From positions 1 through 64,000 of the forward strand of contig NZ_JACDXT010000049.1 in assembly GCF_016464015.1 (NCBI RefSeq): a stretch of 64,000 nucleotides of DNA, in the 5' to 3' direction. The position numbers and the translations under genes are program-made. Below are positions 3,246 to 56,858 of the stretch, piece by piece. Source of the stretch: Psychrobacter sp. bablab_jr014 (GTDB lineage Bacteria > Pseudomonadota > Gammaproteobacteria > Pseudomonadales > Moraxellaceae). Every line of letters begins with the position of its first letter. Position 1 is the first letter of the stretch. Below the pieces are notes generated by a model. It did no database searches. It was not told the origin of the DNA and saw nothing but the letters and a program-made list of their open reading frames with translations.

Positions 3246-3343
3246 AAGCGTATCCTTATAAAACAATATAAAAATAAAGTTAAAAAAATAATGAACGATC
3301 AAATGCCGTTCATCTATGAGGGGTGACGTACGTATTATTAAAA

Positions 3344-3532
3344 TTATAACTCATCAGAAAAGGGGTCTGACTCCGCTGGCATACTGTATTGCTCATCCGC
3401 CCATGCCCCCAAATCCAGGAGCTTACAGCGCTTGCTACAAAAGGGTTTATACGGATTGTCTTGCCAAACGGTCGGCGTACCGCATTGCGGGCAGGGATAG
3501 GTCTTTGGCGTCGTATCAGGCGTAGAAGTCAT
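3344..3532 (-). CDS. yacG: DNA gyrase inhibitor YacG (zinc-binding)
   Basis: A 62-residue protein with four zinc-ligand cysteines, CPQC at 14-17 and CSKRC at 32-36, followed by DLGAWADEQYSMP. This is the conserved core of YacG, a small protein known in E. coli to bind GyrB and block DNA binding. The acidic C-terminal tail (ESDPFSDEL) is also typical. The start at 3532 gives the family length; a longer reading to 3730 runs into the divergent methyltransferase gene and is not credible. It lies between argD and a divergent methyltransferase gene. Confidence 0.9.
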   Translation of the reverse strand: MTSTPDTTPKTYPCPQCGTPTVWQDNPYKPFCSKRCKLLDLGAWADEQYSMPAESDPFSDEL

Positions 3533-11000: not shown

Positions 11001-12874
11001 GTATCGGTGACATGAGCGGCGATGTGTTCGGTAATGGTATGCTGTTATCAAAGCACATTAAACTGGTTGCTGCATTTAACCACATGCATATCTTTATCGA
11101 CCCAAATCCAGATACTCAAAGCTCATATGATGAGCGTGAGCGTCTGTTTGCGTTGCCACGTTCGACTTGGGAAGATTACGACAGCTCGCTCATCAGTGCA
11201 GGCGGCGGTATTTTCTCACGTAAAGACAAGAGCATTGCCATCACTGATGAGATGAAAGCCGCGTTTGACATCACGGCGGACAGCCTAACGCCAAACGAGC
11301 TGATCAGTGCCTTGCTAAAATCGCCTGTAGACTTGATTTGGAATGGCGGCATCGGCACGTATGTTAAGAGCGTTAATGAGACGCATGCAGACGTTGGCGA
11401 TCGTGCTAACGATGCGGTACGTGTCAACGGTAATGAGCTGCGTGCAGCGGTTGTTGGTGAAGGTGGTAACCTTGGTCTTACCCAGCAAGGCCGTATTGAG
11501 TACGCTCAGCAGGGTGGCCGCGTCTACACCGATGCGATTGACAACTCAGGCGGTGTGAACTGCTCTGACCATGAAGTCAATATCAAAATCTTACTCGGTA
11601 AAGTGGTTGAGCAGGGCGATATGACTCTCAAACAACGTAACGAGCTGCTTGAGAGCATGACCGATACGGTGGCAGATTTGGTACTGCGCCAAAACTACCT
11701 ACAGCCACAAGCCATTGAGCTAAGCCGTATCCGTGCCTCAGCGAACCTAAGCGATCATCAGCGTTTTATTCAGATGTTAGAGTCTGAGCAGCGTCTTGAT
11801 CGTGCGATTGAGTACTTGCCCTCAGATGATGAAATTACCAAACGCCAAAAAGTGGGCACTGGCCTGACCAATCCCGAGCTGTCGGTCATGCTGGCTTACG
11901 GTAAAATGTGGGTGTATGACAATCTATTGGCATCTGATTTGCCAGACGATCCGTACTTCATTAATGAGCTGCGTAAATACTTCCCAGATGAGCTGGTTGG
12001 TCGTTTCTTTGATGAGATGACTGAGCACCGCTTGCATCGTGAGATTATCAGCACCTACTTGACCAACAGTGTGGTCAACCGCTTGGGTATCGAAGCGCTG
12101 TTCCGTCTGTATGAAGAAACGGATCAATCACTTGCAACCATCATCCGTGCGTATGCCATTACGCGTGATGTGTTCAACGTGACAGAAGCTTGGGTACAGC
12201 TAGAAGCCCTTGATAATCAAGTAGATGCGACATTGCTATTAGAGCTTGAGCTGCGTCTGCGTGACGTTTTAGAGCGCGGGGTGGTGTGGTTTATCAATAG
12301 CTTTGGTCAAAATCTGCAAGTGGCTGATATGATTGAGCGATTCGGCGCAAGCGTCAGCAACTTAACGCAAGCAGGCGGCTTTATCGAGCAGCAATTTGCC
12401 GAGTACTTGCAAGAAGATACCAATTCGTTACGTGCAGACGGCTTGTCTGATAACGATGCGGCGCTGTTTGCTATGTTGCCCTATCGTGTTGATGCCCTAG
12501 ATGCAGCGATGCTTGCTGAGCAGTATGAGCGTCCAGTTAATGAGATTGCTGCCCTGTACTTTAAAGCATATCAAGCGCTGCAACTCGATTGGATGATTGA
12601 TCATATCGCTGAGCTGCCACAGAATGACTATTGGGATCGCCGTGCACGTCATGCGCTCGTCAATGAGCTGTCACGCAGCTTGCGCTTGCTCATGGATTCG
12701 CTATTGTCAAAACCTGATGCGAAAGTTGCCTTTACAGAATGGGAAGAGCAGCACGCTGAGCACCTAAACGAAGTCGTATCTGATATGGCTAAGCTTGATA
12801 ACAATGAAGACGGCGTCAGTCTGTCTACTTTGTCCGTACTGATGAGTGAAATCAGCAACTTGGCAACCAAATAA
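8033..12874 (+). CDS. gdhB: NAD-specific glutamate dehydrogenase, large (~180 kDa) type
   Basis: A 1613-residue protein matching the large bacterial NAD-dependent glutamate dehydrogenases, which oxidise glutamate to 2-oxoglutarate and ammonia and serve mainly in catabolism. The N-terminal ~700 residues hold ACT-like and helical regulatory segments. The catalytic core runs from about residue 770 to 1200. It includes VHLRGGKVARGGLRWSDR, the VPVGSKGGFIVK lysine segment near residue 850, the SGGSVGYDHKAMGITARGAW region and the NAD-binding VVGIGDMSGDVFGNGML loop. An all-helical C-terminal region follows. AAGGGACAAACCT precedes the ATG. It is a single gene with its own terminator. Confidence 0.95.
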   Translation: MPNSLSISKERIGQISDIATSYVQEDKSLLDHFIHNYYRPLHQEIAEKIDDADLAGRALHHFTMLKAYDGSAPQLKIINPIPEEQHFHSSHTVIQMVAYDRPFLVDTLLMSLEAQGIDVHRTYNTIINVQRDDAGNIAKVSSVEESNTSHFSLIHCEIAYQDNADLPALRQILLDKIETLDTVVGDWKQMRNRLIDLKDELADKPLPEVFYSKEEVQAFLDWILDDHFIFLGYREYRLEGGERIEVNSNVDASTDLNLYAIGDSGLGLLRGSQEDVLSESFSKLPNVLKRLLTEPRVLMLSKSSRVSPVHRPVYMDFLGIHKFDDNGKLVGEYRFIGLFTSQAYQLSVQQIPLLREKANKIMAMAELPRDGHAYHKMMHVINTLPRDDLFQASIEELYPVVSGITQLQDKKSLRLFSRVDHYQRFVSCLVYIPRDKFNTELRIKVQNVLKDAYNGLSSGFTTEFNESDHARVHVHVRTVPGQVKEVDTAALEQKLTALMQSWSDHYQKMLLDNVGEQQANILKRRFLNYIPAAYQENFDTRTAIEDTKRLDSLSESNGLIWHLYQSTGDASNQLHLKLYGHNQPVILSKVLPILENFGVSVISAQTYEFDLPEQPVWMQEYELTLQHVDAVDIRVVRNQFEESLRHIWTGLVESDTFNELVLTTKLDTYDVVVLRALSRYMLQARAPFSSAYIQQTVVRNSNISVALCDLFDARMNPAHGDDERKEKTKAIEANITAALAKVDSLDEDRILRWYLDLINAMVRTNFYQRDEHGARKDRLSFKFCAADIPNLPKPKPMFEIFVYSPRVEAVHLRGGKVARGGLRWSDRMEDFRTEVLGLVKAQMVKNAVIVPVGSKGGFIVKNKTMADGREAFQAEGIACYQTFLRGMLDVTDNIVDGTIVPPANTVRHDADDPYLVVAADKGTATFSDIANALAAEYNFWLDDAFASGGSVGYDHKAMGITARGAWESVKRHFRMRGMDIQTRDNFTVVGIGDMSGDVFGNGMLLSKHIKLVAAFNHMHIFIDPNPDTQSSYDERERLFALPRSTWEDYDSSLISAGGGIFSRKDKSIAITDEMKAAFDITADSLTPNELISALLKSPVDLIWNGGIGTYVKSVNETHADVGDRANDAVRVNGNELRAAVVGEGGNLGLTQQGRIEYAQQGGRVYTDAIDNSGGVNCSDHEVNIKILLGKVVEQGDMTLKQRNELLESMTDTVADLVLRQNYLQPQAIELSRIRASANLSDHQRFIQMLESEQRLDRAIEYLPSDDEITKRQKVGTGLTNPELSVMLAYGKMWVYDNLLASDLPDDPYFINELRKYFPDELVGRFFDEMTEHRLHREIISTYLTNSVVNRLGIEALFRLYEETDQSLATIIRAYAITRDVFNVTEAWVQLEALDNQVDATLLLELELRLRDVLERGVVWFINSFGQNLQVADMIERFGASVSNLTQAGGFIEQQFAEYLQEDTNSLRADGLSDNDAALFAMLPYRVDALDAAMLAEQYERPVNEIAALYFKAYQALQLDWMIDHIAELPQNDYWDRRARHALVNELSRSLRLLMDSLLSKPDAKVAFTEWEEQHAEHLNEVVSDMAKLDNNEDGVSLSTLSVLMSEISNLATK

Positions 12875-42118: not shown

Positions 42119-43456
42119 TTAAGCAGGCGTCGCCTTTGCTAGCGCCTCAAGCTGCTCAAGATAGCGCCGTCCCAGCTCGGGCTCTGCCGAGGCAATCCAC
42201 GCGGCGTACCCTGATAAGGTAGCCAGACTTTCGCCGTCATGTAGCGGCTTTCCTGCTTGTAGATTATGAATGGCGGCGCGCAGCATACGTTTGATACGCC
42301 GAGGTACACGCGGTGCGCCCTCGCCATTGACCACCATTCCTGTGACGTTTTGCTGCTGTCCTGTGCATACGATGCTGGTCTTGTCGGTATTTAATACAAA
42401 CCCTTCTTCTTTAACAATTTTATAGACCGAACCGAGCAACAGCCCAATCATGGCATTTTGCGCATCGCTGTCGGCAGCACTGCTACTTGGGAGGCTAAAG
42501 GTCAAGTCATCGGCATAGCGGCTGTAACGCAGACCATGCTTATCCGCAAGTCCCGTCAAGCGTCTGTCCATATTGACGCAGACGATGTTTGACAGCGCAG
42601 GGCTGGTCGGCGCGCCTTGCGGCAAGGCTCTGTCAGCCAGTGCCACATAATAAGTGACGCCGTTTTGTTGCACCATCTGCCGTGGCGATTCGCTGCATAA
42701 TAACGCAAGCAACGTGGCGATAGATTCAGGGTAGCCCGCCTGCCGAAACACGCCTTTGGCACGTCGCCAATGAATGGTGGGGAAGAAGTCTTTTAAATCA
42801 AGCTTAATCAATACCGCGCTGTCACTGTGCACCTCAGCATTGGTAACGATAGAGCGCCCACTGACAAAGCCATGCGCCGCGCCGTGTGTTGGCAGCTGCT
42901 CTAAGATATGGTGCAGTATCCAGCGCTGCGCGGTCTTAAGCGTTGGGATAGGCGACCAAATCTCACGCGTTCCGCCACGGCGTTTTTGAATACTAAAATG
43001 GGTGTAGGGCACATGGGTCGCCACTTCGCGCTGATAGCACAAGCCTTTAAGCTGCGCAATGCTTAGATTTAGTGCTGCTGCCAGCTCTTTTGGTTGGGTC
43101 AAGACGGGCAGCTGATTACTGACGCGGCGGCGCTCGCCATCGGTCACGTCCCATTTGTCCGCGCTGTGGTCATCCGACCAGTAGATATGGCGACCCAGAT
43201 AGACGATATGCTGTGACTTATACGCTTGCCATGCGTCTTTTTTGAGCTTTTTTTCTTCAGCGGCTTCTTTTTTGAGCATCGCTTTGTAGCGCTGGCGCTC
43301 CGCCTTACTCATGTCATCAATCGGGCGACGTTCAACCAAAAAGCCCTGTGTCACTAATTGCTGCTGTACGTACTGATAGCGCCCGCCTGCCTGCTCGATG
43401 TCTTGCCAAAGGGTTTGCCAATGTTCTCTTAAATTTTGTGTGCTGGTGCTGCTCAT
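42119..43456 (-). CDS. Retron-type reverse transcriptase
   Basis: A 445-residue reverse transcriptase. Retron hallmarks are NAEVH at 206-210 (the NAxxH motif), the catalytic LDLKDFF at 219-225, LPQGAPTSPALSN at 278-290, YADD at 314-317, GFVLNTDKT at 352-360 and VTG at 371-373. Together NAxxH and VTG separate retron RTs from group II intron RTs. The N-terminal ~115 residues are an extra charged region with a Lys/Glu-rich helix (about 50-78). It is last of four genes, 3 bp after the SWIM gene, so there is no room for an RNA directly upstream. The likely msr-msd lies upstream of the whole operon, at 56502-56748 on the other strand. Confidence 0.93.
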   Translation of the reverse strand: MSSTSTQNLREHWQTLWQDIEQAGGRYQYVQQQLVTQGFLVERRPIDDMSKAERQRYKAMLKKEAAEEKKLKKDAWQAYKSQHIVYLGRHIYWSDDHSADKWDVTDGERRRVSNQLPVLTQPKELAAALNLSIAQLKGLCYQREVATHVPYTHFSIQKRRGGTREIWSPIPTLKTAQRWILHHILEQLPTHGAAHGFVSGRSIVTNAEVHSDSAVLIKLDLKDFFPTIHWRRAKGVFRQAGYPESIATLLALLCSESPRQMVQQNGVTYYVALADRALPQGAPTSPALSNIVCVNMDRRLTGLADKHGLRYSRYADDLTFSLPSSSAADSDAQNAMIGLLLGSVYKIVKEEGFVLNTDKTSIVCTGQQQNVTGMVVNGEGAPRVPRRIKRMLRAAIHNLQAGKPLHDGESLATLSGYAAWIASAEPELGRRYLEQLEALAKATPA

Positions 43457-43459
43457 CGG

Positions 43460-45523
43460 TTAGATTCCTTTGTCTTCAATATAGCCTTTGGCTTGTAAAC
43501 GCTGGGCGTGCTGCATCATGGCATCCATCGCTTGCTGCGCGGTGTTAAAGCAGATTTTTTGGCGGCGGGTATTGCCGTTTTGCTCGCGCTCAATGAGTAA
43601 GGTGCGCTCATGTACCGACAGTTGGGTGCTGTGGGTTTGCATATGGTTATTTGCGTTAATCGGCATGCTGGGCGCGGTCAAATCCCAAATGTTGGCGCTG
43701 GTTGTGTTTGGTGTATTTTTTCTTAGCGCGTTGTTTTGTGGGGTTTGCGCTTGTTCATTATTCGGCACAGCCAAGCGCTTGTTAAAAATACGCGTGCGCG
43801 GGGCGTTGACTGCGCGTGCGGTATGCTGATACAGGCGCAGGGCAATCAGGTGCGCGCACGGTCCGTGGCTCAGGCGATGTTGTAAATACTGCGGGCAGCT
43901 GCATTCGGCTTTTTTGACCAAGCCATCGTGCCCAAGCGTCAGCTGGCTGTGGTAGCTGCGTCTGTCAGCGGCGACCTCGATATCCGCGCTGATCATGACA
44001 TCGTCAGGCAGGACGCTTTTGACACTGACATGATGAAACGATTTGGGCTGGGCTAAAATGGCAAACGCCTGCTTTTCGGCATCGTTGTGATACGCGAACT
44101 GCGCCATGTCCAGTGGTGTCTGCGTCAATGGACGATAGTGGTAACGCTGGCTGGGCATATCATAGCGCACCAGTCCTTGCTGGGCGGCGCTGATGAGTGC
44201 GGCGTGGCATTCGCTGGCACTGAGTGCGTTATCTTTGGCGGCGCATAAGTCCTCTAACGTCTTTGGTGCGTCTTGTAGTGTTTGAACAATATGGGCAATC
44301 GTCTCTTGCTGGCTGCTCGTTTGCGTGCCGAGTGGTCGCTTGGGCAACAGCAAATCAAAATTCAGCGCCTGCGACCAGTTGTCTTTATTAAAGCCTGTCA
44401 TGGCAAAGGTAAAGCTAAACCCATCACCAGCAATCACCCAATAGCTGGGCATCCCTTGCCCCAAGATATGTACGGTCACGTCCTTAGCATACGGCAATAG
44501 ACGCTTTAATAAGCTCAAACGGCGACGACCCCACAGACGTATCATTTTTGCTTCGCTGCCGCCATAGGGTTTCGCCTGTCCGAGCTGGCAATTTACACTG
44601 ATATTAAACGGCTCAAGCAGCATTACTGGCGGCTGGTTGGGGGTTAATTCAATGATTAGTCCGCGCCGCTTGCCTTTGATGTCCGCGTGCATCCGCAATT
44701 CAAACAGCACGTTATATAAGGCGATGGGGTCAAGGGCGATGCTGTCCATCGGCAGTTGGGCGGCGGCTTGGATTTGCAGCAGTCCGCGTATCCAGCGGCT
44801 TGGCACATGGATGCGCTTTTCAATGACGGTATCATCAGACGAGTCTGCGCTTTGAGCTACTGCTTCGGTATTGTCTGTTTCACTGGCTGGCGCGCTTGAA
44901 TGGCGGCTAAATTGTAGTGCGTCTTGTCCAATGCTCAGCTTGGGCGCTTGGCTGTCGTCAATACGGGCAAGGGTAAGGGCTAAGGCGTCGCTATAGTCAA
45001 TGCTGGTTGTGCCGTAAGTGCTGGCGCTGTCGGTTGCAAACAGACTGTGCGCTAGGGTGAGCTGTGCGTAGCAGCCTTCATCGCGCCCAAACACCTCAAA
45101 GCTGACACCATCAGGATTTACCTCGATAATGGGATCTAGGATGCAGTACGCCAGCGGGTCATTGTGCAGCAGCCAATTAAAATAATCGCGCTGGGCGGTA
45201 AATAGGTTTTTGTTGCGGTTTTGCCGCCGCATTTGGCTAAAGACAGCGTAAGCAGCGCGGTCTTTGGGTACATAGCGATAGTCACTCTTAACCACATCAA
45301 ACAGCGCAAGTAAGCTGTCACGAAACAGTAGCGGCTGGGTGACCACGCCGTCAAAACTTACCGCATCGCGGCGCAGGTCGGTAAACAGCGCTACGTGCTG
45401 CTGATGCGCCTCAGTTGGTGTGACGTGGCTGACATTGGCATAGTCCAGCGACATTGGTGTGCCGCGCTCGTTTTCTTGAGTGCTGTCGGTGCGCTCTGTG
45501 GGTAGGGGATGATTGGTGCTCAT
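43460..45523 (-). CDS. SWIM zinc-finger protein with WGR-like C-terminus, retron accessory
   Basis: A 687-residue protein. The SWIM finger, C-x-C-xn-C-x-H, is C541-S-C543 with C556-A-H558 (AECSCPQYLQHRLSHGPCAH). SWIM fingers bind DNA or proteins. The last ~55 residues, from VHERTLLIEREQNGNTRRQ to KGYIED, resemble the WGR domain known from PARPs, but the Trp-Gly-Arg itself is not intact. The N-terminal 500 residues match no family I can name. Its start lies 2 bp after the stop of the giant HEAT gene, with AGGAGA upstream, so the two are coupled. Confidence 0.85.
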   Translation of the reverse strand: MSTNHPLPTERTDSTQENERGTPMSLDYANVSHVTPTEAHQQHVALFTDLRRDAVSFDGVVTQPLLFRDSLLALFDVVKSDYRYVPKDRAAYAVFSQMRRQNRNKNLFTAQRDYFNWLLHNDPLAYCILDPIIEVNPDGVSFEVFGRDEGCYAQLTLAHSLFATDSASTYGTTSIDYSDALALTLARIDDSQAPKLSIGQDALQFSRHSSAPASETDNTEAVAQSADSSDDTVIEKRIHVPSRWIRGLLQIQAAAQLPMDSIALDPIALYNVLFELRMHADIKGKRRGLIIELTPNQPPVMLLEPFNISVNCQLGQAKPYGGSEAKMIRLWGRRRLSLLKRLLPYAKDVTVHILGQGMPSYWVIAGDGFSFTFAMTGFNKDNWSQALNFDLLLPKRPLGTQTSSQQETIAHIVQTLQDAPKTLEDLCAAKDNALSASECHAALISAAQQGLVRYDMPSQRYHYRPLTQTPLDMAQFAYHNDAEKQAFAILAQPKSFHHVSVKSVLPDDVMISADIEVAADRRSYHSQLTLGHDGLVKKAECSCPQYLQHRLSHGPCAHLIALRLYQHTARAVNAPRTRIFNKRLAVPNNEQAQTPQNNALRKNTPNTTSANIWDLTAPSMPINANNHMQTHSTQLSVHERTLLIEREQNGNTRRQKICFNTAQQAMDAMMQHAQRLQAKGYIEDKGI

Positions 45524-45525
45524 GA

Positions 45526-48500
45526 TTACTTATCTCCTAGGCTCAGATGCTGCGGATTGTGGATGGTCTGCCATGCGTTACTGCCAGCAGGTGGCGTATC
45601 AAAATAGGGCATGGGGCGCTTGTTTTGTGCTTTATTTTGCCCACGCTGCCAGCGGCGTTTGACGTTATAGGCGGTTTTTTGAATATCAGGCTGCGTGTGC
45701 TGCATCAGGCTATCCAGCCATGCACTGACCCGTGTATCAAACATTTGCCCCAGCGCTTCTATGGCTTGCAGGCGGGTGCTGATGGTTTGCGTCTCGTCGC
45801 TTGCGCAGTGATACAGCGCCTCGGTATTTTGCGTTTGTATCCAGCTGAGCAGGGCAGGGCTGGTACTTGTCGTGTTGATATCTGTCTTGACAACGGGGGT
45901 CGGCGTTAAGCGTTCTATCACTTGTATGCGTAAGGCATTGGTTTTGGCAGTGAGCAGACGCAACGGCGGCAAGGCTTGCAAGGTGGGTAACAGCTCGGAT
46001 AACTCTGTCATCTCAGATTCAGGACGTGCCAGCAGCGCGAGCCACACTTGCTGCCACCACGCCTCTACGTGCTCGCTCAGTGCGGGCAGGCTGGCAATGA
46101 TGGGCAGCTGGCTGATGCGTGTGAGCCACGTTAATGACGTGATAAGACTGCTGTCGCTTGCGTTTGTCGCCGCGCTATAGCGGTACAATAGCCACAGCGC
46201 GAGGGCGATTTTTTTTGCCAAAGCATGAATGCGCATCTCGTAGCGCGAATAATCATTGACCGCGCTACCGATACGCTGCATCAGCGCTTGCCATGCTCGC
46301 TGCGCCTCAGCGAGACGTTCAGCCGCCATACTCAGGGTTTGGCTGGTAATGGCGCTTTGATGTTGACCTAGATAAGCAAGCGCAATAGACAACATACTGT
46401 CGTCAGGGTACGTCAGTAGCTGCATTAAGGTTTCAGGCGCTATAGCGTCATCTTGTAAGATACGCTGCGCAAGCGTGTGGCGTATATGTTCTGATAAGGC
46501 TTCGCCATGGGTCAGCATAAAGTCAATAATAGCGTCTACACTGCTGTATTCGGTAATGCGCTGGAGACTCAGCGCCATATCCTCATTATCCAGCGTTTGC
46601 TGGCGGCTTTGTATTGCTGCCCAATCATAAGGCTGGCAGGTCTTGTCCGTACCCCACAACTTTTGTGCTGCTTGGTAGGTCGAGGCAAAGACATACGGCT
46701 GTTCAGTACTGGTTAACAGATTGAGCAGCAAGGCTTTGTTGCCCTCATTGTCTGAAAAGGATAATAAATATAAAGCGTCCCGTAAGACGGTGCTGTAGGT
46801 CGCTGCCGTGACCAGCCCGCTGATATATTGGCGAATCTCTGCCCAAGCTGCAGGCGTACCCAAGCGGCGCAGACCGTGCAACCAATGCATAATGGCTGGG
46901 TTGTACGGCGACAGATTGGGCTGATGCAGCTGCGCTTTTAACAACTCAAAAACCTGGGTGCTGTATTCAAAGCGTCCGCCATCAGCGAGCATTCCGAGCG
47001 CCTCGCACGCCACATCTTGTAAGTAATGCATCTCATCTTCGGCATATTGTACTAAGCGCTCGTACGCTTGATACAAAATATCGGTCGAGACAGGGGCCGC
47101 GTCTGGATGCTCAGGCGTGTCAAATAATGCGCCAATGGCCAGCACGCTACGGCGACGCACATCGCCATCGGTATGGTGCACCATCGTCGCCATCAACAAG
47201 CTCGCGCCATCAGCAATACCGACTTTCGCTAGCGCTTCTGCAGCGATAAAGGACACCATCTCTTGACGGCTGGACAAGGCTTGTTTTAATACCGCCGTAT
47301 CACCGTGTCGATATTGGGCGCGGTACGCGATTGCCTTGACCACAGCGAGCCTGCGTTTTTCAGGCAGCTGAGCGTAAGCTTGTGCCAGTAGTGCATCAAT
47401 ACGCTCGGCCATGTGCGTATCCGCAGGCGTTGCGGTTTTATCATCCTTATCATCACTTTCACGCCCAATCCATGCCAGCGGTGAGACCAGCTCAAGCACG
47501 TAGTCACTGTCTTGAACACGCAGTAGCAGGCTAAAGACATCCATTAGGATGACAGGATGGCGTGGATACTGCGTGGTGAGCCAGCGCGTGTCTTCATACT
47601 CATCAAAATAATCGTGTATCGGCTGATCAAAACCGCTCACTTTTATCAACGCCTGCATGATATTAGCGCGCTCTGGGCGGTGATTGTGGTCTTGATAAGA
47701 CAAGGTTAAACGCGCTTGTAAGCCTGTTACCACTGAGAGTGCGCGTGTACTGGCAAGAGCGCGATAAATAAGAGAGCGGCTGATGCGGCGGCGTGGGTCA
47801 TCGAGCAGTGCAAACAGCCACTCATTGAGGCGCGCTTGCTGTGCGTTGGTCACGATTGAGTGCTGCTCGGCATAATACTGACTAACCTTGTTAATCAGCT
47901 GTAAGACTTGCTCTTGGGCGTACTCGGTATGACTGAGCATAAAGTAGGTGAGTAACGCCTCTAATAGCTGAGGATCAGCGTTTAACAGCGTAGGCTGTGC
48001 CAATAATTGTTGCCATGCGTGATAACGTGCCTGCCAGTCATACACATAAATAGCATGCTGTAAAAACTGCTGGTGCGCGTCTTTATCTTGCAATCCTGTC
48101 TGCTGCCATGTATTGATAACTTGACGTACCAGCGGCGTATCGGCGTACTCCAGTACCGCCAAGCTGGCAGGGAGCTGCCCAATAGCAGCAACCAGATATT
48201 GATAAATCTCTTCTGCCAGTAAAGGATGTGCGTCGCGTAACCGCTGGCTAAACGTCGTCGTCAACGTGCTGTCTGTACGATGCTCAGCCACCCACAGCTT
48301 GACGCCCGCCGCCACCATATCTCGATGCTCGGTCGCCATTGCCTCTTGTGCCAATGCGGTCAGGGTAATAGGCAGCTCGTGTAGCGCTTCCCACACCAGT
48401 GCGCGCGTCTCGGCACGACTGTGATTCAGCAGCGGCAATAGGGCTTGAGTGATGCTCGCTGACCATGTGCCTGAGGGCATTGTCTCAGGCCTTTTCGCCA

Positions 48501-51500
48501 GCCACAGCAGTCCACGAATGGCTTGGTTAATGACACTGTTCGCATTAGCATTACGAATCACGCCCAGCCACGTGCCAAAGGCAAGGCTCTGATAGTGATT
48601 ACTATCCGTAGCCTCTGCTGTATCATTGCTTGTTGTCTTATCACTTGCCAATACTGGCAAGTGATGGTTTAGGGTTGCCATCGTGCCAAGCCACGCTTGA
48701 ATATGCGTCATCTTGGGTTCAGTAAGCAATAACGACAGTTGTCCAAGCGCTTGTACAGCGGTTGCCTTGAGTAACGGTGATAGGCTACTGCGCGGCGCGT
48801 GCAGTAAGGCGGCGAGCGATTGTAGTGATTTGCTATTTATCGCAGCTAAGGCGGTTTGGCGTAGGGCTGCCGTTTGCGGGTCATTTACTTGCGGCAATAA
48901 CTCAGTAAGCGCCTCTTGCAATGCCTTGTTAATCGCATTATGGATATGTTCCCATACGGCTTGTTTATCGTCTGTCAAGCGCGCCAAGCAGTGCGCGTAT
49001 AAAATGGCACTTTGTGCATCAACGAAGCTTAACGCATTGACCAACAGCGCTGCGCCCTTGTTTGCGTCTTCTTCAGACAAGGCGGTAAAGAGCAGCGTCC
49101 AGCGGGCGGCGGGCACGTACGCAGAGATGTTAAATAATGGCGCGAGTGTCCATGCGGTATCAATGCCTAAACCCATACGCCCTTGCAGCCATGTCATGGG
49201 TGATACGTCCTTATGCAGGGCAGATAAGTTCTGGTCGGTCTGCTGATACAATGCCGCGCCTGATACCTCGCCCGCTGTACTCCCCAAAACACCAAGGGCA
49301 ATACTCGCCGACTGCTGCACAAGCGTACGCTCATCGCGCTGCCAGTGCTGTAATGCTTCGATATGATGAGTGCGATTCGCATCCGTCACCCACATCAGAT
49401 AAGGGGCAACGGCACTAAAATCCGCATCAGAATGATTAAGATAGCGCTGATACCAGCCAAAGGCATCGCCCGTCTGCGGCTCTGCTAAAGCGGCAAGTCC
49501 TATTAGCGCCTGTGTTACCTGCTGATGCCAAAGAGTATACGCCGCTTTGTCTTGTTTTTTATCAGGCATCACCTGTTGTAAATAGCGCTCAAACACATCA
49601 TACGCTTGTTGGCTGTATATCGCTGCCAATTCAGAGGTTTTATGACTAGCAGTGTTGTTCATATTATGAGCACTGACACGCTGTGAATGACGTGCCAGGA
49701 AAGTGGCCGTTTTTAGCTGAATGTCGGTGTAGGGGCTTTGGATACCTGCATTCAGCAAAGCTAAGTAGTCGTCATTGGCATCTTCACTACTGATTTGCCC
49801 GCCATGTGTCACCAGCTGTAGCGCCACATCTAGGGCGGTTTTGCGCACTTCTAAACCTTCAGCGGCAAGTAATGGCAGCAACAGTGGCATAATAGCTGAA
49901 GTCGTATTCGGCTCGGTTAATGTCCCACAGCGCTGTAGCCCTGCAGTAACGATGTCCTCAAAAGGGCTGGCAAGCGCGGCAGTTATCACCTGCTCAATGT
50001 TGAATCGCTGCGGATAGTCGCCTGCCGTCTCCAGCGCTTCATGACGAATCGTGCGAAATGGGTCACACAGTAACAGTGCCAATAATGCGCCATCATTGGC
50101 ATTATCCTCATGGACATTTACTTTTCGTGTGTTTTTGAATAAAAAGCGCTGCCATTCTTCTAACCCTGCGCGGTGTACGTCCTCAAATTGACTTGTGGCG
50201 ATCAGCTGTAAGTATTGATATAGCGAGGCGCTGTCATGGAGCAGTACGCGCGCAGTCAATACTTTTAAAACCTCTAAGCGTACGCTGGGAAAGCGGTTGT
50301 CCAGTAGGGGTTTAAACTGAGTAATGAGTGCTTCATCGCTAATTTTGGCAAGGTTTTGTTGTAGCAATAACGCCAAAGCGTCCTCGTGAATGTGGGCGTG
50401 TGCCGAGGCAAAACCAAACGCTGCCCATGTCTGCGTGTCGCTACAGACTTTGCCTAATGCCTGCATGGCGACCTTGCGTACTTGGGTATTGCTGTCGTTT
50501 AGCATCGCGCCAAGGAGGGTTTGCGCATCAGCCAGCCGCTGATTGCCGAGCGCGCGTGCCACGCCTGCGCGGACAATGGCATCATCGCTATGAATAAAGC
50601 CAATCAATACACCAAAAGCGCGGGCGTCTTTTAAACAGGCAAGGGCATAAGCCGCACGAAAGCTGATGTCTTGATAATGGTTGCTAAGCGCTTGTAATAA
50701 TGGCGCAAGGGTCGCTTCATCTAATGCGAGTGTGTCTTTACTAACGGATTCCTTTTTCTTGCCTTGGCCTGTCTTTTTATCATCAGCGCTTTGAAAATCT
50801 TCAACTTGTAAGGCCAGACGCACATCATGAGTGATATTGCCAGCATTCTTAGCATCAGTATGCGTCAGCGTGCCCTCTGTCAAACTAAACGCATCAAAAT
50901 CTGCCAGTGTGCGCAGTAGGTAGCTGTCCTCTTGCTGCTGCGCCGCACGCTGCAAGGCATCTGCCAGCTCAGGCTTAGCAAGTAGCGCGATAAAAAAGGC
51001 GGTCTGGCGCACCTCACTGTCACTACTTTGCTGTAATAGCATCAGCTGGCGCGTCACTTTAGGCGTGGATAACAAGCCGCGCTGATACAGACGAATCAAA
51101 CCTGCCTGCACGGTATCGGTATAGCGACTGCTCAAGGCCAGCATGTCCGCTTGTATGCTATCAACAGGGAAGATGGCTTCAAGGGCGATGAGTGCCGCAC
51201 GGCGAATGCTCAGGCTGTTGTGAGACAACAGCGCAGGCAACACCATTTGACTGTACTGACGGTCACCGTGTTGCTGATCAGGGCTGGTATTATTTAAGTG
51301 CTCGTTGCTTGCGCGCATTTGATGTTGCTGTATGGCAGCATTGACCACCTCGTCATGACGGCTGGCAAGCGCTTGGGTCAGATACTCTTGCACCGATAAT
51401 GGCGCAGCGGCATAGTGCTGCTCTAGTGCCTCAAAAGCCGCGAGGCGGACTTGAGGGCTGATGGTGCTGTTTAATAACTGCTCTAATAGTCCAATACGTG

Positions 51501-52869
51501 CGCTGAGTGATAACTGGGAAAGTACGTTAACCAGTGCCTGTGCATGGGCGCTGCTCGTACGGGTATCGCTTAAAACCTTTTTGATGATGGCTAAGGCGCG
51601 GCTGTCGTCTTGTGCCAATAGCAATGTTAAAGCCTGATTAAATAAGGTCTCATGCTCGTTACTGCTGTCTGCCAAATAGTGCTCAATACGTGCGTAGCCG
51701 TCCTGCATACTGTGAATGATAGGCTGTAGACTGTGATTGCTATCGGTATTTACGGGTAAAAAATGTAGGCTGTTGTCTTTGGTAATGGCTAAGAGCGCAG
51801 GTGCTTCGGCATAATGCGTCCATGCTAAATAGCGCGGATTGGTAAGGTTGTCTTTACTGCTGCTCGGCTGCCCCTTATCCAGCGCCCAAGACTTGATACT
51901 GCCGTCATTGCCTGCGGTAAACAGACGCGCGCTTGAGACGCACAGCGCCTTGATATGGCTGGCATGCCCGCTAGATTTTGCGCGGTCGGTCGGCTGCAAG
52001 TCGCCTTGTATGTGGGTGCGATACAAGGTGTTGTCAGCGCCAGCGGAGTAAAAGTAAGGCGAATGCGGCACAAAAGCGAGCGCCGTAATGCGCCCTTGAT
52101 GCATGGGCTGGGTGCTGCTTGGCTGAATATGACTGTTCTGTATCTCACTGCCATCATAGCGCCACTGACAGCTGACGATAGTGCCTTTGTCATCACCAAT
52201 AATGAGCCATTGTCCATCGCTGCTGCTGGCGAGCATGGTCGCCTTGGTACTATTGTCACCATTGTCAGACGGCGTGATATCCGCAGCATCATGATGTTGC
52301 GCAAATAACGGCGCAAGCGGCTGCACAATGGGGCTGGTGGACAGACGCTTTGCGGTGTCGGCATAAGGGCACACTACCAATGTATGCGCATACAAAACCG
52401 CGACAGCGTGGGTCAAAGGGACGATATCTAGCGCGCTTGGTTGGACGTTATTAGAAGATGCTGATGTATGCTGATAAATAGGCAGCGTACTGATTTTTTG
52501 AATGGTTTTGGCGTGCCAGTCGGTTTGGTACAAGTGATTGTCAACGCCCAATAAAAATACCGCCTCGCTGTTTGCGGTGATGCACTGCATGGCAACAGGC
52601 AGCGCAAGTGTATTTAATTCGGGGCGAGCGCCTAATGTATCTAAAACGTATAAGTCATTTTTGGGCGTAGCGGCGTCACGGCTGCCCTTATCCTGAGGGT
52701 CACGCTCAGGCAAGCGGGTGATAAACAGACTGCGTCCAGTCGGCGCTGTCTTATTTTTTGTATTGTTGCTTTTATCATTGTGGGTACTGCTGCCGTACTG
52801 GTTTAGGCAAGCATCTTGGCTGATAATGCCGATAATCTCGCCCCAGTAAGCTAAGGTGCTGGTTTTCAT
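45526..52869 (-). CDS. Giant WD40 + HEAT-repeat protein, retron accessory
   Basis: A 2447-residue protein, probably cytosolic, with no signal peptide or membrane segment. The N-terminal ~400 residues hold beta-propeller blades: ASSSDGQWLIIGDDKGTIVS, ITALAFVPHSPYFYSAGADN, IKALCVSSARLFTAGNDGS-IKSW. The remainder is alpha-solenoid, with many HEAT-type helices such as YALACLKDARAFGVLIGFIH, VRAGVARALGNQRLADAQTL and VRKVAMQALGKVCSD, and runs of the same pattern to near the C-terminus. No enzymatic motif was recognised. Such proteins act as scaffolds or sensors. It is second in the operon, 74 bp after the BRCT gene. MolR-like HEAT proteins occur with SWIM proteins elsewhere, but I cannot test homology here. 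Confidence 0.85.
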   Translation of the reverse strand: MKTSTLAYWGEIIGIISQDACLNQYGSSTHNDKSNNTKNKTAPTGRSLFITRLPERDPQDKGSRDAATPKNDLYVLDTLGARPELNTLALPVAMQCITANSEAVFLLGVDNHLYQTDWHAKTIQKISTLPIYQHTSASSNNVQPSALDIVPLTHAVAVLYAHTLVVCPYADTAKRLSTSPIVQPLAPLFAQHHDAADITPSDNGDNSTKATMLASSSDGQWLIIGDDKGTIVSCQWRYDGSEIQNSHIQPSSTQPMHQGRITALAFVPHSPYFYSAGADNTLYRTHIQGDLQPTDRAKSSGHASHIKALCVSSARLFTAGNDGSIKSWALDKGQPSSSKDNLTNPRYLAWTHYAEAPALLAITKDNSLHFLPVNTDSNHSLQPIIHSMQDGYARIEHYLADSSNEHETLFNQALTLLLAQDDSRALAIIKKVLSDTRTSSAHAQALVNVLSQLSLSARIGLLEQLLNSTISPQVRLAAFEALEQHYAAAPLSVQEYLTQALASRHDEVVNAAIQQHQMRASNEHLNNTSPDQQHGDRQYSQMVLPALLSHNSLSIRRAALIALEAIFPVDSIQADMLALSSRYTDTVQAGLIRLYQRGLLSTPKVTRQLMLLQQSSDSEVRQTAFFIALLAKPELADALQRAAQQQEDSYLLRTLADFDAFSLTEGTLTHTDAKNAGNITHDVRLALQVEDFQSADDKKTGQGKKKESVSKDTLALDEATLAPLLQALSNHYQDISFRAAYALACLKDARAFGVLIGFIHSDDAIVRAGVARALGNQRLADAQTLLGAMLNDSNTQVRKVAMQALGKVCSDTQTWAAFGFASAHAHIHEDALALLLQQNLAKISDEALITQFKPLLDNRFPSVRLEVLKVLTARVLLHDSASLYQYLQLIATSQFEDVHRAGLEEWQRFLFKNTRKVNVHEDNANDGALLALLLCDPFRTIRHEALETAGDYPQRFNIEQVITAALASPFEDIVTAGLQRCGTLTEPNTTSAIMPLLLPLLAAEGLEVRKTALDVALQLVTHGGQISSEDANDDYLALLNAGIQSPYTDIQLKTATFLARHSQRVSAHNMNNTASHKTSELAAIYSQQAYDVFERYLQQVMPDKKQDKAAYTLWHQQVTQALIGLAALAEPQTGDAFGWYQRYLNHSDADFSAVAPYLMWVTDANRTHHIEALQHWQRDERTLVQQSASIALGVLGSTAGEVSGAALYQQTDQNLSALHKDVSPMTWLQGRMGLGIDTAWTLAPLFNISAYVPAARWTLLFTALSEEDANKGAALLVNALSFVDAQSAILYAHCLARLTDDKQAVWEHIHNAINKALQEALTELLPQVNDPQTAALRQTALAAINSKSLQSLAALLHAPRSSLSPLLKATAVQALGQLSLLLTEPKMTHIQAWLGTMATLNHHLPVLASDKTTSNDTAEATDSNHYQSLAFGTWLGVIRNANANSVINQAIRGLLWLAKRPETMPSGTWSASITQALLPLLNHSRAETRALVWEALHELPITLTALAQEAMATEHRDMVAAGVKLWVAEHRTDSTLTTTFSQRLRDAHPLLAEEIYQYLVAAIGQLPASLAVLEYADTPLVRQVINTWQQTGLQDKDAHQQFLQHAIYVYDWQARYHAWQQLLAQPTLLNADPQLLEALLTYFMLSHTEYAQEQVLQLINKVSQYYAEQHSIVTNAQQARLNEWLFALLDDPRRRISRSLIYRALASTRALSVVTGLQARLTLSYQDHNHRPERANIMQALIKVSGFDQPIHDYFDEYEDTRWLTTQYPRHPVILMDVFSLLLRVQDSDYVLELVSPLAWIGRESDDKDDKTATPADTHMAERIDALLAQAYAQLPEKRRLAVVKAIAYRAQYRHGDTAVLKQALSSRQEMVSFIAAEALAKVGIADGASLLMATMVHHTDGDVRRRSVLAIGALFDTPEHPDAAPVSTDILYQAYERLVQYAEDEMHYLQDVACEALGMLADGGRFEYSTQVFELLKAQLHQPNLSPYNPAIMHWLHGLRRLGTPAAWAEIRQYISGLVTAATYSTVLRDALYLLSFSDNEGNKALLLNLLTSTEQPYVFASTYQAAQKLWGTDKTCQPYDWAAIQSRQQTLDNEDMALSLQRITEYSSVDAIIDFMLTHGEALSEHIRHTLAQRILQDDAIAPETLMQLLTYPDDSMLSIALAYLGQHQSAITSQTLSMAAERLAEAQRAWQALMQRIGSAVNDYSRYEMRIHALAKKIALALWLLYRYSAATNASDSSLITSLTWLTRISQLPIIASLPALSEHVEAWWQQVWLALLARPESEMTELSELLPTLQALPPLRLLTAKTNALRIQVIERLTPTPVVKTDINTTSTSPALLSWIQTQNTEALYHCASDETQTISTRLQAIEALGQMFDTRVSAWLDSLMQHTQPDIQKTAYNVKRRWQRGQNKAQNKRPMPYFDTPPAGSNAWQTIHNPQHLSLGDK

Positions 52870-52943: not shown

Positions 52944-55900
52944 TTATGCAGGCGTTACCAATAAATGCTCACGCAGCGTCGGATAGCGATGCAGCAGCCT
53001 TGTAACTGCCGTTAGGCTGGCGTGGCGCTCCATCTTGCCTGCCGAATGCGTAAAGGTATATAAGTCAGCGATAATCAGCGCGGCAAAAGACATATCCGTT
53101 AAAGCAATATCCCGAAACGTCTCAATCAGCGCCAGCTTGGCTTGGCTGGCAGACAGTAGCGACTGGCTCAGCGTTTGCGGCGTGTCAGGCTCGCTAGTGC
53201 GCTGCTTGTTGTATTTATAGTTATGGCTTTGCTTTTTTGCAGTAGGTTTTTGCTCGGGATTGCTCAAGCGCCCTGGTGGCAGCTCAAACAAGCCGCGACG
53301 CAATAACAGACGTAGCTGATCGACTTCAGCAGGCAAGGTTTCTGGCGGGTTTTTAACAGCGCTTGTGGCTGTTTCGGTGTCTTCGATGGATAGCAGCTGG
53401 CGCTTGGTAACAGGGCGTTTTTGCTTGTATTGTTGCCATAGCATACATACAGCGGCGTAGCGGATGTCGCGGTGACTGCTTTGGGTCAATAAATAGAGTA
53501 AATGCACGTCCTGAAACTGCGGGTTTTGTTTTAATAAAGTGATACCAATGCGTCTTGCTTGCGCCTGTTTGCTACCGACCAAGGCGTTTATCGCCGCTGT
53601 ACTGTATTGGCTACTGTCGATATGATAGAGACGGTTGCTCACACTGGGTTTAGCAAACAAGGCTTGCTGTAATAAGGTCTGTACCTCAAGATACTTGGAC
53701 TCTGCCAAAGACAGCCACAATTCAGGGGTTAATTGCCAGCGTGCCAGCTCATGGCGGGCGAGTAGTAAGCCAAACTCACGTAGGTTGCTATGACCGCTGG
53801 ATAATAACGGCACAACGCGCTCGGCGCTAAAAAAGGCGTTTGGAATGGCTGCATTACTGTCGACAGGACGGTCGGTCAAGCTCATGTGGATGCTATCGTG
53901 GTGATGACTCATATAGTAGATGGCAAGCTCACTGATGGCGGCGGTCGGGTCATCGGTTGCCATTGACCACAGACGCTCTGTCCCTGCCAAGGTAGCATCT
54001 GCTGATACCTCTCGCGTCGTCCCTGCCAGCATCTGCAAAAACGCTGTCTCTGAAATAATACGCATGCTCGCGCCAGCCTCAATCAGCTTTTCTGCCTTTA
54101 GCTGCTTGCTGCCTTTACGCCCATGACCGTAAAATGGCGACCCTTCATCGCCAATAACCAAGTAGTCCAAGCTGTTATTCACACCGCTACTGATGAGACC
54201 GTTATGCGCCTTGACCTCGGCTTCGGCAGCACTGCGGCTCATGCTTTGCATTTTTCCTGTAAATAAAAAGCGCTGCTGCTCAAAATCGATGCTGCTTTTC
54301 TTATCCTCACTTTGGTTGCTATTGATATTTGTAGCAGGGTTGGTCTCTGGTTCAGCAAAGTCAGCGGGCAAAAAGCCTTTATTCATACAATCAATCGCAA
54401 ACTTACGGTACATCGCCGTATCGCTATGGGCGAGCATTAACAGCCAATTAAAGCCAAGTGCAGTAGGGACAAAGCGGCGCACATCCGACAGCCAATGATG
54501 TACCCATTCTGTAGCGAAATACACGTCAAAACTTAAATCGCTAAACCAGTCTTGATAGACAGTTGCTTTAATTGCACTATCCACTTGGTCAAATACCGCG
54601 TTATAAATCACGCCATTCGGCTGTACGCCCATCTGCCAATCAGGTTCATAAGCGAGTGCGTGCCAGTAGTTTATAGGCAGGCGGGTAGCATCAATGACCT
54701 CGATATCTATCCAGTCACTGAGTGTCTCTTGGGCGAGTGGGTGCAATAACAGATATTGCCATATCGCAGGGTCAATGGTGCTAAGGTCTGTTTTACGCAA
54801 TTCTTCGAGCACAAAATCCATGCACGCTGCTTGATGCTGACTGTAGCTAGGCAATAGCGTGCGGGCGATATCAACAAAAAAATCAGCACCCAAAGTCTTG
54901 GCGCTATAGAGCTTCGGCAGTTGCTGTATAGCAAAACTAACGGCTTCAGGGCTATTGCCCAACAGACGCGCGCGGAACCAATCAGGCGTCAGCTCTTTAC
55001 GGGTAAAATGCGCGGTTAGCTGGTTGCTTGCGGTCTTAAAATGATAGGACGTTTCTAATAGCTGACCCCAACCTTGTACGCCGATGTCTTTGACGGGATG
55101 ACGACTGAGTATGAGCTGCATAGCAAACTCGCGTACAGGCGCATGGGCGGATACCGCGAGTAACAGCAGGGTGTCTAAACTCAAATCTTTGGCATAGCTT
55201 GATGCATAACTGATGGCGTATTGATACGCTTTGCTATAGTCAGAATGCAAAAGATGCAGCACCACATCATGCAGCCCCAATCCCACAAACTGCGATTTTT
55301 CTAATGATGATGAGCGCTCTAGCAGCCATGTCACCAGCTCGTCACGAGCGCGGCTGCGCGTACCTGCCGACACATATTGAATGGTCGCCGCATCAACGTC
55401 TTTGAGTTTGATTTTAAAATCGTGCTTGAGGCTGTCGGTCGCGAACTGACGTACCGCTTCGTTTTTGGCGCTGGCAAGTAAGGTAAATAACGGCGTTTCA
55501 TCACGTTGCCAAGCGCTGGCAAAAGCACGACCGTCAGCAGAAAACAGCTTGCGCGGGGTATTATGGACAAAGCGATTGACGCCGTAATGTACTTCATTAT
55601 GAAAGCAAATGTGGTTGAGTACCCAGCTATTGACCTGCGCGCTACTGCCGAGCGTCATGTCTGCATCAATGCTGGCAAGTACACGCACCGCCGCGTCGGT
55701 ATAACATATCGGCAGATGCGTACCCAAATGGCGCAAATAACGCCATGCCCGCAAACTGATATAGGTCTTGGTACGCAGGCTGACCGCATCCTTTAACTGC
55801 TGGTCAAAACGGTATGAATCCACCTTGGCAGCAATATGCGCAAAAATCTCATAGTCTTGGCGGTATTCCGCTTGCTTATAAATATATTTTAGACCGCGCC

Positions 55901-56270
55901 ATACGCCGTAGGTTAAGGGTAGAGTATCAATCGCTTGTATCAGCATCGCTCTGGCATAGGCGCGAGTATCCTCCCATAATGCCAATAAAATCACATACGT
56001 CTGATAGCGTGGTGGTAGAGTATATACGCTGTCAGCAGACTCTAGCTGCGCCATCAATGCCACGCGCTTGGCAAACTGCACCTCAGGCGGCAAAGCGCGA
56101 AACTCAGGTGCAAAAATCGTCGCCAAAAACGTCTCAAAGGTCAGCACATCATCAGGTAGCGGTGTATCACGCGGCGCGTCCGGCTGGCGTGCAAGTTGGT
56201 CAAGTTTCTCAATGAGGTTGGGGTCTTCAGCTTGCCACGCCTGATAGATATAAGAAAATGATAAATACAT
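52944..56270 (-). CDS. HEAT-like helical protein with an internal BRCT domain, retron accessory
   Basis: An 1108-residue mostly helical protein, the first gene of the operon. Residues about 662-750 form a BRCT domain of the DNA-ligase/RFC1 type: QQRFLFTGKMQSMSRSAAEAEVKAHNG, SLDYLVIGDEG, KGSKQLKAEKLIEAGASMRIISE. BRCT domains of this class bind DNA ends or phosphorylated partners. The flanking regions look like alpha-solenoid repeats (HAPVREFAMQLILSRH; HRDIRYAAVCMLWQQYK). A Lys/Ser-rich linker lies near residue 1000. No nuclease or ATPase motif was seen. The ATG at 56270 faces the divergent retron RNA region. Confidence 0.85.
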   Translation of the reverse strand: MYLSFSYIYQAWQAEDPNLIEKLDQLARQPDAPRDTPLPDDVLTFETFLATIFAPEFRALPPEVQFAKRVALMAQLESADSVYTLPPRYQTYVILLALWEDTRAYARAMLIQAIDTLPLTYGVWRGLKYIYKQAEYRQDYEIFAHIAAKVDSYRFDQQLKDAVSLRTKTYISLRAWRYLRHLGTHLPICYTDAAVRVLASIDADMTLGSSAQVNSWVLNHICFHNEVHYGVNRFVHNTPRKLFSADGRAFASAWQRDETPLFTLLASAKNEAVRQFATDSLKHDFKIKLKDVDAATIQYVSAGTRSRARDELVTWLLERSSSLEKSQFVGLGLHDVVLHLLHSDYSKAYQYAISYASSYAKDLSLDTLLLLAVSAHAPVREFAMQLILSRHPVKDIGVQGWGQLLETSYHFKTASNQLTAHFTRKELTPDWFRARLLGNSPEAVSFAIQQLPKLYSAKTLGADFFVDIARTLLPSYSQHQAACMDFVLEELRKTDLSTIDPAIWQYLLLHPLAQETLSDWIDIEVIDATRLPINYWHALAYEPDWQMGVQPNGVIYNAVFDQVDSAIKATVYQDWFSDLSFDVYFATEWVHHWLSDVRRFVPTALGFNWLLMLAHSDTAMYRKFAIDCMNKGFLPADFAEPETNPATNINSNQSEDKKSSIDFEQQRFLFTGKMQSMSRSAAEAEVKAHNGLISSGVNNSLDYLVIGDEGSPFYGHGRKGSKQLKAEKLIEAGASMRIISETAFLQMLAGTTREVSADATLAGTERLWSMATDDPTAAISELAIYYMSHHHDSIHMSLTDRPVDSNAAIPNAFFSAERVVPLLSSGHSNLREFGLLLARHELARWQLTPELWLSLAESKYLEVQTLLQQALFAKPSVSNRLYHIDSSQYSTAAINALVGSKQAQARRIGITLLKQNPQFQDVHLLYLLTQSSHRDIRYAAVCMLWQQYKQKRPVTKRQLLSIEDTETATSAVKNPPETLPAEVDQLRLLLRRGLFELPPGRLSNPEQKPTAKKQSHNYKYNKQRTSEPDTPQTLSQSLLSASQAKLALIETFRDIALTDMSFAALIIADLYTFTHSAGKMERHASLTAVTRLLHRYPTLREHLLVTPA

Positions 56271-56373
56271 ACGCTACGCCTTTGCTATCACGGTATCTGC
56301 CAATAAAAGAAGTCCTTATAAAAGCGCATTTTTGCGCGCGTATCAAGAACTTTTGTCAATTTAAATCAAGAAA

Positions 56374-56390
56374 GCGACATATATTGTCGC
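56374..56390. repeat. 17-bp inverted repeat GCGAC-N7-GTCGC, copy 1
   Basis: GCGACATATATTGTCGC is a perfect 6-5-6 palindrome. A second site with the same 5-7-5 half-sites lies at 56413. This spacing and symmetry suit a dimeric repressor site. Confidence 0.7.
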
Positions 56391-56412: not shown

Positions 56413-56429
56413 GCGACGCCAGTTGTCGC
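56413..56429. repeat. 17-bp inverted repeat GCGAC-N7-GTCGC, copy 2
   Basis: GCGACGCCAGTTGTCGC shares half-sites and spacing with copy 1, with a different spacer. Centres are 39 bp apart, close to four helical turns. Confidence 0.65.
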
Positions 56430-56472
56430 TTATACTAATAAAATCGACTAAATTTTATGGATAAGTATTGCC

Positions 56473-56503
56473 AAAAAAACAAGGCTAGGGCACAATAGCC
56501 TTG
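56473..56503 (-). terminator. Minus-strand terminator between retron RNA and operon
   Basis: On the minus strand CAAGGCTA pairs with TAGCCTTG and is followed by seven T. It would stop transcripts entering from the RNA side before they reach the operon. Confidence 0.75.
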
Positions 56504-56748
56504 TTGTGAGATTTAGCGTTTCACCGAGTTTCGGTGAGGGATGATGTTGCGTCATCCACGAGACAAGCCATTACACGTAACACAAGGAAGACTGTTTCAG
56601 TCCTGCTAATACCTAGATAGTGCCCCTAGTGTCATTAGCTCGCTGGCGCAATCACGCAATCGTGATTGAGCTAATGCACTAGGGGCACTATCTAGGTGCA
56701 GTCCAGTGAGTCTTCCATGTACCAAGTTATGAGGTAGATTGAACAACA
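56502..56748 (+). ncRNA. Predicted retron msr-msd RNA
   Basis: About 247 nt in the order a1, msr, msd, a2. The a1 segment 56502-56515 pairs with a2 at 56735-56748: 12 of 14 positions pair, two by G-U, around one tandem G-A mismatch. AGC follows a1 at once (candidate branching G at 56516). Two msr hairpins follow: TCACCGA/TCGGTGA (56521-56537) and GGATGA/TCATCC (56539-56557), the latter very like the Ec86 msr hairpin. The msd has a base stem GGAAGACT/AGTCTTCC (56586-56593, 56709-56716), a perfect 21-bp arm (56611-56631 with 56677-56697), then CATTAGCTC/GAGCTAATG and a terminal AATCACG/CGTGATT hairpin. G-U pairs and motif order fit the plus strand only. Confidence 0.85.
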
Positions 56749-56813
56749 CCATGCTCGATGTTTATAGAGGCGTTTTTATATTAATATCAAGCATATAGGC
56801 ACAAGAAAAATCA

Positions 56814-56858
56814 AATCGGAGTTGACCTGTTTATGTAGGTTAGCTCCGATTTTTTTTG
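56814..56858 (+). terminator. Terminator of the retron RNA transcript
   Basis: A 15-bp stem (56814-56828 with 56837-56851) contains two G-U pairs on the plus strand and is followed by about seven T. On the minus strand those pairs become A-C mismatches, so it is a plus-strand terminator. Confidence 0.85.

Follow-up and report, generated by a model that had tools for sequence, protein, structure and literature searches.

The 64,000-nucleotide stretch of the Psychrobacter sp. bablab_jr014 genome analysed here (the window) encodes an RNA that is very probably the msr-msd of a four-gene type XIII retron, forming a transcription unit of its own that diverges from the HEAT1-HEAT2-SWIM-RT operon and serves the reverse transcriptase (RT) in trans. 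More broadly, and with somewhat less confidence, we think it likely that the msr-msd of four-gene type XIII retrons is an autonomous, trans-acting RNA gene, which lies codirectionally upstream in several phyla, was flipped once in Psychrobacter, and in Myxococcota and others has come to lie behind the RT or megabases off, in multiple copies. The features of the locus, in window coordinates, are as follows.

42119-43456, minus strand: RT_XIII retron reverse transcriptase, 445 aa (PADLOC model, 519.7 bits; next best 301.9)
43460-45523, minus strand: SWIM_XIII protein, 687 aa (PADLOC model, 506.8 bits)
45526-52869, minus strand: HEAT2, 2447 aa, HEAT-ARM_XIII with a WD40-like N-terminal part (PADLOC model, 1161.2 bits)
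52944-56270, minus strand: HEAT1, 1108 aa, HEAT-ARM_XIII (PADLOC model, 935.1 bits)
56318-56346, minus strand: promoter-like site of the operon, TTGATA-N17-TTTTAT (pattern in relatives)
56374-56390, no strand assigned: dyad GCGACA-N5-TGTCGC between the two promoter-like sites (conserved in relatives)
56413-56429, no strand assigned: second, imperfect dyad (the nearest relative, L038, has a full dyad there)
56468-56496, plus strand: promoter-like site of the RNA, TTGCCA-N17-CACAAT (scanner; hexamer conserved in relatives)
56503-56748, plus strand: putative msr-msd RNA, type XIII retron ncRNA (fold, BLASTN homologues, alignment, covariance model R2)
56502-56514, plus strand: a1 arm (pairing with a2)
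56515-56517, plus strand: AGC of the TAGC motif, directly 3' of a1, with G56516 as candidate priming G
56520-56538, plus strand: msr hairpin 1 (fold and homologue alignment)
56539-56557, plus strand: msr hairpin 2, loop UUG (fold and homologue alignment)
56583-56719, plus strand: msd, base stem and long hairpin (perfect 21-bp arms 56611-56631 / 56677-56697)
56734-56748, plus strand: a2 arm (pairing with a1)
56813-56858, plus strand: predicted intrinsic terminator of the RNA, hairpin 56813-56852 plus T run (scanner)

All four genes lie on the minus strand, as an earlier note on this DNA had said, and run in the order HEAT1-HEAT2-SWIM-RT. Judged from its protein matches, the operon is the four-gene form of a type XIII retron, a type that the retron classification of Mestre et al. 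2020 reportedly contains: the RT scores as a member of the type XIII clade, and its SWIM and HEAT-ARM partners score with the models of the same type. The RT carries the motifs NAEVH at 206, YADD at 314 and VTG at 371. NAxxH, YADD and VTG make up the retron RT motif set, and YADD is also given in PMC6868368. A second reverse transcriptase is present elsewhere in the window's own genome (L002, G000:C31:139170-139784). HEAT1 also resembles, at scores under the cut-off, the C-terminal portions of LigA and of a PolIII epsilon model, in a stretch that we take to be BRCT-like.

The earlier note had placed a retron msr-msd RNA at 56502-56748 on the plus strand, and all the elements that it listed were found there, with homologue matches centred on 56503-56748 and an R2 match that covers the whole model (56503-56750, 189 bits). 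The AGC following a1 is present as TAGC, the msr hairpin as GGATGATG-UUG-CGTCATCC, and the 21-bp msd arm is perfect as described. The pairing of a1 with a2 also stands, whereas the tandem G-A mismatch proposed within it gives way to a single mismatched pair, which is seen by eye in 16 of 21 aligned RNAs. From anatomy alone, then, the RNA has paired a1 and a2 arms, a priming G and an msr 5' of the msd, and TAGC is the commonest priming motif of retrons according to PMC6868368. An Rfam scan of the window found no family at gathering score; the 14 matches obtained at E values up to 10, all under that score and led by microRNA families that fit the msd hairpin, were set aside. The retron identity of the RNA is supported by its type XIII RT, SWIM and HEAT-ARM neighbours, by the RT motifs, and by a covariation-supported msr-msd that is conserved across phyla.

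Like Retron-Eco1 (Ec86), the window has a1 and a2 arms, a priming G motif and msr hairpins followed by the msd, a likeness based on what we take to be the Ec86 sequence. Retron-Eco1, however, is one msr-msd-RT cassette, whereas the window holds two opposed units and four proteins. The general anatomy follows that given in PMC6868368, where retrons are described as one polycistronic cassette. An msr-msd codirectional and cotranscribed with the RT is not what we found, the two being on opposite strands in the window and in 23 other Psychrobacter loci; the single-transcript msr-msd-RT layout is a description of how retrons are organised and not the definition of a retron. Within the abstract listings and the sections of PMC6868368, PMC9252829 and PMC12548924 that formed our literature search, with Mestre et al. 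2020 and the 2024 retron census, which may treat type XIII RNAs or unusual orientations, outside its scope, no divergent retron RNA is reported.

To judge how general the arrangement is, the genus itself is informative. SWIM_XIII is present in 25 of 105 genus genomes, the window counted. The region was taken from the 24 others, and in each of the 23 stretches that extend beyond HEAT1 the RNA is on the far side of that gene and points away from it (21 complete, one cut by a contig end and one with Ns). With the window, the arrangement is divergent in 24 of 24 testable loci, a count that excludes L033, whose contig is too short. The stretch L093 begins within HEAT1 and gives no orientation. The boundaries are well kept, the BLASTN match being exactly query 24-269, or 56503-56748, in 12 of 23 related loci, while seven further matches start 13-21 nt earlier and end at most 4 nt from 56748. 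At the DNA level the RNAs are 82-92% identical to that of the window, and 97% in the nearest species; the HEAT2 proteins of the same loci are 32-41% identical, and 75% in the nearest. HEAT1 of the window is 90% identical to that of Psychrobacter aestuarii. The earlier note had proposed a look for compensatory changes in homologous loci, and these are there: in a genus alignment of 21 RNAs, which leaves out L042 (contig end), L049 (Ns in the msd) and L045 (inverted msd tip), 17 of 85 pairs show double-sided changes, multi-base swaps in the msd stem included. Because long perfect msd arms can covary by DNA-level quasi-palindrome correction, it is the msr and a1/a2 pairs that carry weight here.

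Three RNAs of the genus show irregularities in the msd. In L045 (15460-15704) the distal msd palindrome runs the opposite way from that of close relatives, either as a real flip or as an assembly artefact at the palindrome, and the Ns of L049 sit at the same spot. The msd stem at L046:15653-15897 has the GTGCCCC / GGGGCAC of the window while the rest of the RNA matches another group, and it looks, from the sequence, as if it had been exchanged.

Co-occurrence of RNA and operon in the genus is close, with an R2 match in all 25 SWIM_XIII genomes (one partial). One genome, G068, has a full RNA and no SWIM match, on a contig that ends 274 nt past the RNA. Three more (L177-L179) retain the RNA and a HEAT1 remnant of its first 78 codons, and no further operon gene was found nearby; the deletion is shared, and the operon loss therefore counts as one event. 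Together with the SWIM match broken into two pieces in 2 of the 25 genomes, such remnants would fit a divergent placement that is a decayed relict of systems now inactive in Psychrobacter. We regard this as highly improbable, since SWIM is a single open match in the other 23 genomes, and since the paired changes in the RNA, together with its much stronger conservation than that of HEAT2, argue for continuing selection. The three operon-less RNAs have lost one msd arm and part of msr hairpin 2, and damage of this kind after operon loss suggests that it is the operon for which the RNA is maintained.

Outside the genus, relatives were collected with a HEAT1 query that gave 65 named loci. For a first covariance model, R1, we used nine RNAs, which came from Psychrobacter, Zooshikella and two further genera of the Pseudomonadales, and left aside 4 of the 13 trimmed RNAs that had been prepared; in a search over 41 chosen loci, it matched unseen RNAs from Thiothrix, Thiolinea, Thiofilum, Singulisphaera, Zavarzinella and others (E 1e-13 to 1e-25). 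A second model, R2, was made from 30 matches and searched in 61 of the 65 named loci, many of its source loci among them, with stricter filters in the genus-genome and order-sample searches. In Psychrobacter, all 20 R2 matches in named loci are on the minus strand relative to HEAT1. In 18 loci of other genera (one truncated), three of which have tandem copies, and in three further loci of the order sample, the RNA precedes HEAT1 and reads in the same direction; in Uabimicrobium it lies 115 nt after the RT. No R2 match was found in 22 of the 61 loci. Within the order sample, the eight R2-positive genomes are the eight with a full-length four-gene SWIM, and three genomes with a weak or broken SWIM gave no match. 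Tandem RNA copies were seen in L101, L104, L113 and L212, the last with three.

Across the 30 RNAs, which come from several phyla, 97.6% of cells are paired and double-sided changes occur in 16 of 28 pairs (5 of 8 in msr hairpin 2), counts that lean towards the model since these RNAs, like the displaced ones described below, were aligned by fitting to the model structure; none of 500 shuffles was as high. The window resembles type XIII retrons in that its four proteins match the models of that type and its msr-msd stands beside the operon, and differs in that its RNA is divergent upstream of HEAT1, whereas in other four-gene loci it is codirectional. Three-gene type XIII loci give weak R2 matches (11-23 bits, E 3e-5 to 0.06), which in 14 of 15 lie directly after SWIM and codirectional with it, the position of the RT beyond them having been checked in part of the loci. 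In one locus, L119, three long perfect inverted repeats sit in or near operon gaps (3321-3423, 9736-9805 and 11676-11792) and have no R2 match.

A HEAT1 tree places the change of orientation. In this tree, rooted at the midpoint and made of 42 rows (41 of the 61 loci plus the window, with 10 of 22 Psychrobacter rows, window counted), the divergent rows form one clade (100/100), so that one inversion suffices. The codirectional Thiofilum and Thiothrix rows adjoin Psychrobacter (92/93 and 92/86, below the star threshold). Of all the loci examined, only those of Psychrobacter have the divergent orientation, which looks derived. Several codirectional RNAs have, by eye, terminator-like hairpins before HEAT1, and the RNA unit may have been autonomous before the flip, in which case the flip would be harmless. 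Homology to these relatives settles, independently of transcription, which way the element points with respect to HEAT1.

The strand had been argued in the earlier note from G-U pairs that would be lost on the minus strand, an argument that turned out weaker than it had seemed. The alternative is a functional RNA on the minus strand that forms a 5' leader of HEAT1, with the canonical orientation. Its appeal lies in the fold: the minus strand folds as stably (z -11.07 against shuffles, -127.2 kcal/mol) as the plus strand (z -9.95, -124.5 kcal/mol), and since both fold far better than shuffles a single sequence does not fix the strand, for which reason folding energy was dropped as a strand test. 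Likewise, the plus structure has 56 G-U cells and one A-C cell (16 distinct rows), whereas a consensus structure predicted on the minus strand has 82 G-U cells and four A-C cells; prediction on either strand yields a structure with many G-U pairs of that strand, which biases the count, and after this control the count lost its force as decisive evidence. The consensus fold of the alignment (-112.7 on the plus strand vs -98.1 on the minus strand) and the pairs beyond the msd that have changed on both sides (5 of 37 vs 2 of 37) modestly favour the plus strand. Further points tell against the minus strand: model matches in Psychrobacter loci occur only on the strand away from HEAT1, the homologous strand of the outgroups reads msr before msd and runs with HEAT1, TAGC follows a1 on the plus strand, and the conserved promoter-like site and the terminator are on that strand too. 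We accordingly consider a minus-strand RNA very unlikely. The plus strand is supported by anatomy, homology and signals rather than by G-U pairs, and the divergence that had been proposed, with the RNA on the plus strand and four genes on the minus strand, is borne out by the homologous outgroup strand and the signals alike.

For the signals themselves, a promoter scan of the window alone gave two sites in the region against 3.0 expected, not above chance. In all 22 complete Psychrobacter loci, a hexamer stands 35-36 nt 5' of a1 (TTGACA in 20, TTGCCA in 2) and is followed by a CAnAAT- or CAnACT-like hexamer. The terminator that had been placed at 56814-56858 was recovered one nucleotide earlier, at 56813-56852 plus the T run, and a similar hairpin and T run can be seen by eye 3' of a2 in other Psychrobacter loci. 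On the operon side, the pattern TTGATR-N17-YTTTAT recurs in 17 of 24 Psychrobacter loci, window counted. At least one dyad of the form CGACA-N3-6-(TGTCG/TGACG/CGTCG) is present in 20 of 22 loci, and ten hand-picked representatives contain 11 such sites, where letter shuffling predicts 0.022; that the GCGACA dyad has a role across the genome is unsupported (3 places vs 2 for the backward control). A minus-strand hairpin and T run at 56478-56505, present in the window and its nearest relative, overlaps the -10 region of the RNA promoter and may stop readthrough into the operon. From these signals we infer that the RNA is its own transcription unit, starting around a1 and stopping at the terminator. 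The two promoter-like sites support as plausible the idea, raised in the earlier note, that separate promoters let RNA and protein doses vary; if so, the two promoters and the dyad that they share would give cells a means of adjusting the RNA relative to the effector proteins.

A terminator of its own, before the downstream gene, would also suit a regulatory RNA or attenuator that acts on the operon or on the downstream M90 peptidase gene and is no template. To this we give little credence: the RNA has retron anatomy and co-occurs with the RT operon even where the two are megabases apart, and the M90 gene, whose distance varies, turned up in only 5 of the 24 stretches fetched.

In the mechanism that we propose for the msr-msd reading, RNA polymerase would start around a1 from the sigma-70-like promoter and stop at the 56813-56858 terminator, and the RT made from the operon would find the RNA in trans, prime from the 2'-OH of G56516 and reverse-transcribe the msd into a long, branched DNA hairpin, by analogy of perhaps ~160 nt. 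The RNA-DNA-RT complex would presumably, as in other retrons, restrain the HEAT and SWIM proteins until phage infection, and by the same analogy the system of the window would serve in anti-phage defence. With signals of its own, the RNA is free to change its orientation and even to lose its link with the operon; in most relatives that keep it beside HEAT1 it is upstream and codirectional. Such an arrangement implies an RT that acts in trans in nature and would offer natural two-promoter designs for editing tools.

Loss of linkage can be followed outside Psychrobacter. In 14 tree rows, mainly Myxococcota, there is no RNA upstream of HEAT1, and the inverted repeats and short motifs near HEAT1 in Myxococcota-type loci include no msd-type RNA. 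A whole-genome R2 search of 13 genomes (ten tree rows without a locus match, Uabimicrobium, a Fimbriiglobus MAG and Singulisphaera as control) nevertheless gave strong matches in all 13 (best E 9e-24 or lower). Around the displaced RNAs, tblastn found no type XIII gene in 14 of 17 fetched stretches, the exceptions being Uabimicrobium, one MAG with the RNA ~0.9 kb after the RT, and Byssovorax with the RNA 15 kb after the RT on the same contig; several RNAs are near MAG contig ends (one 68 nt from the end), and linkage is therefore possible there. In the 20 RNAs of the displaced group, 17 of them without a type XIII gene nearby, 96.5% of cells are paired and 17 of 28 pairs have changed on both sides, again with a lean towards the model, and TAGC occurs within the first 25 nt in only 12.

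The Nannocystis order, sampled with 29 genomes, provides the clearest case. Eleven genomes have a four-gene-type SWIM, assigned by score with two checked against a named locus; the RNA is present in 10 of these and in none of 13 without such a SWIM (Fisher p 5.6e-6, kinship ignored). The remaining five have another SWIM group (four with linked RNA) and stand outside the test, and the one of the 11 with no R2 match is G873. In four genomes of the order a pair of RNAs lies 3.2-8.9 Mb from the four-gene SWIM on the same multi-megabase contig, with the nearest PF00078 match 137 kb to 1.4 Mb from the pair. Unlinking of RNA and operon is firm in this order and probable elsewhere.

These tandem pairs far from PF00078 recall Retron-Nex1 (Ne160) of Nannocystis exedens, for which PMC6868368 gives repeated msr and msd, no RT within a kilobase and perhaps a distant RT. 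From the host group, the copy arrangement and a compatible length of ~160 nt, Ne160 would belong to the displaced tandem RNA type. If this is true, Ne160 is the product of a distant type XIII RT, which would end the puzzle of the RT-less retron, and RT-less msr-msd copies now have a testable partner RT. In this family, which a covariance model holds together, the rule of a single linked cassette fails twice, through inversion in Psychrobacter and through loss of linkage in the Nannocystis order and probably in others; retron RNA searches confined to the flank and strand of the RT would miss such cases.

Ten proteins encoded beside displaced RNAs include six without a Pfam match, the others being cation-efflux, ABC-transporter, M28-peptidase and radical-SAM proteins. 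The Fimbriiglobus MAG (G846), with no type XIII gene in the five stretches L211, L213, L216, L217 and L219, of which L217 is on a contig that ends 68 nt past the RNA, carries six scattered RNA copies in one genome.
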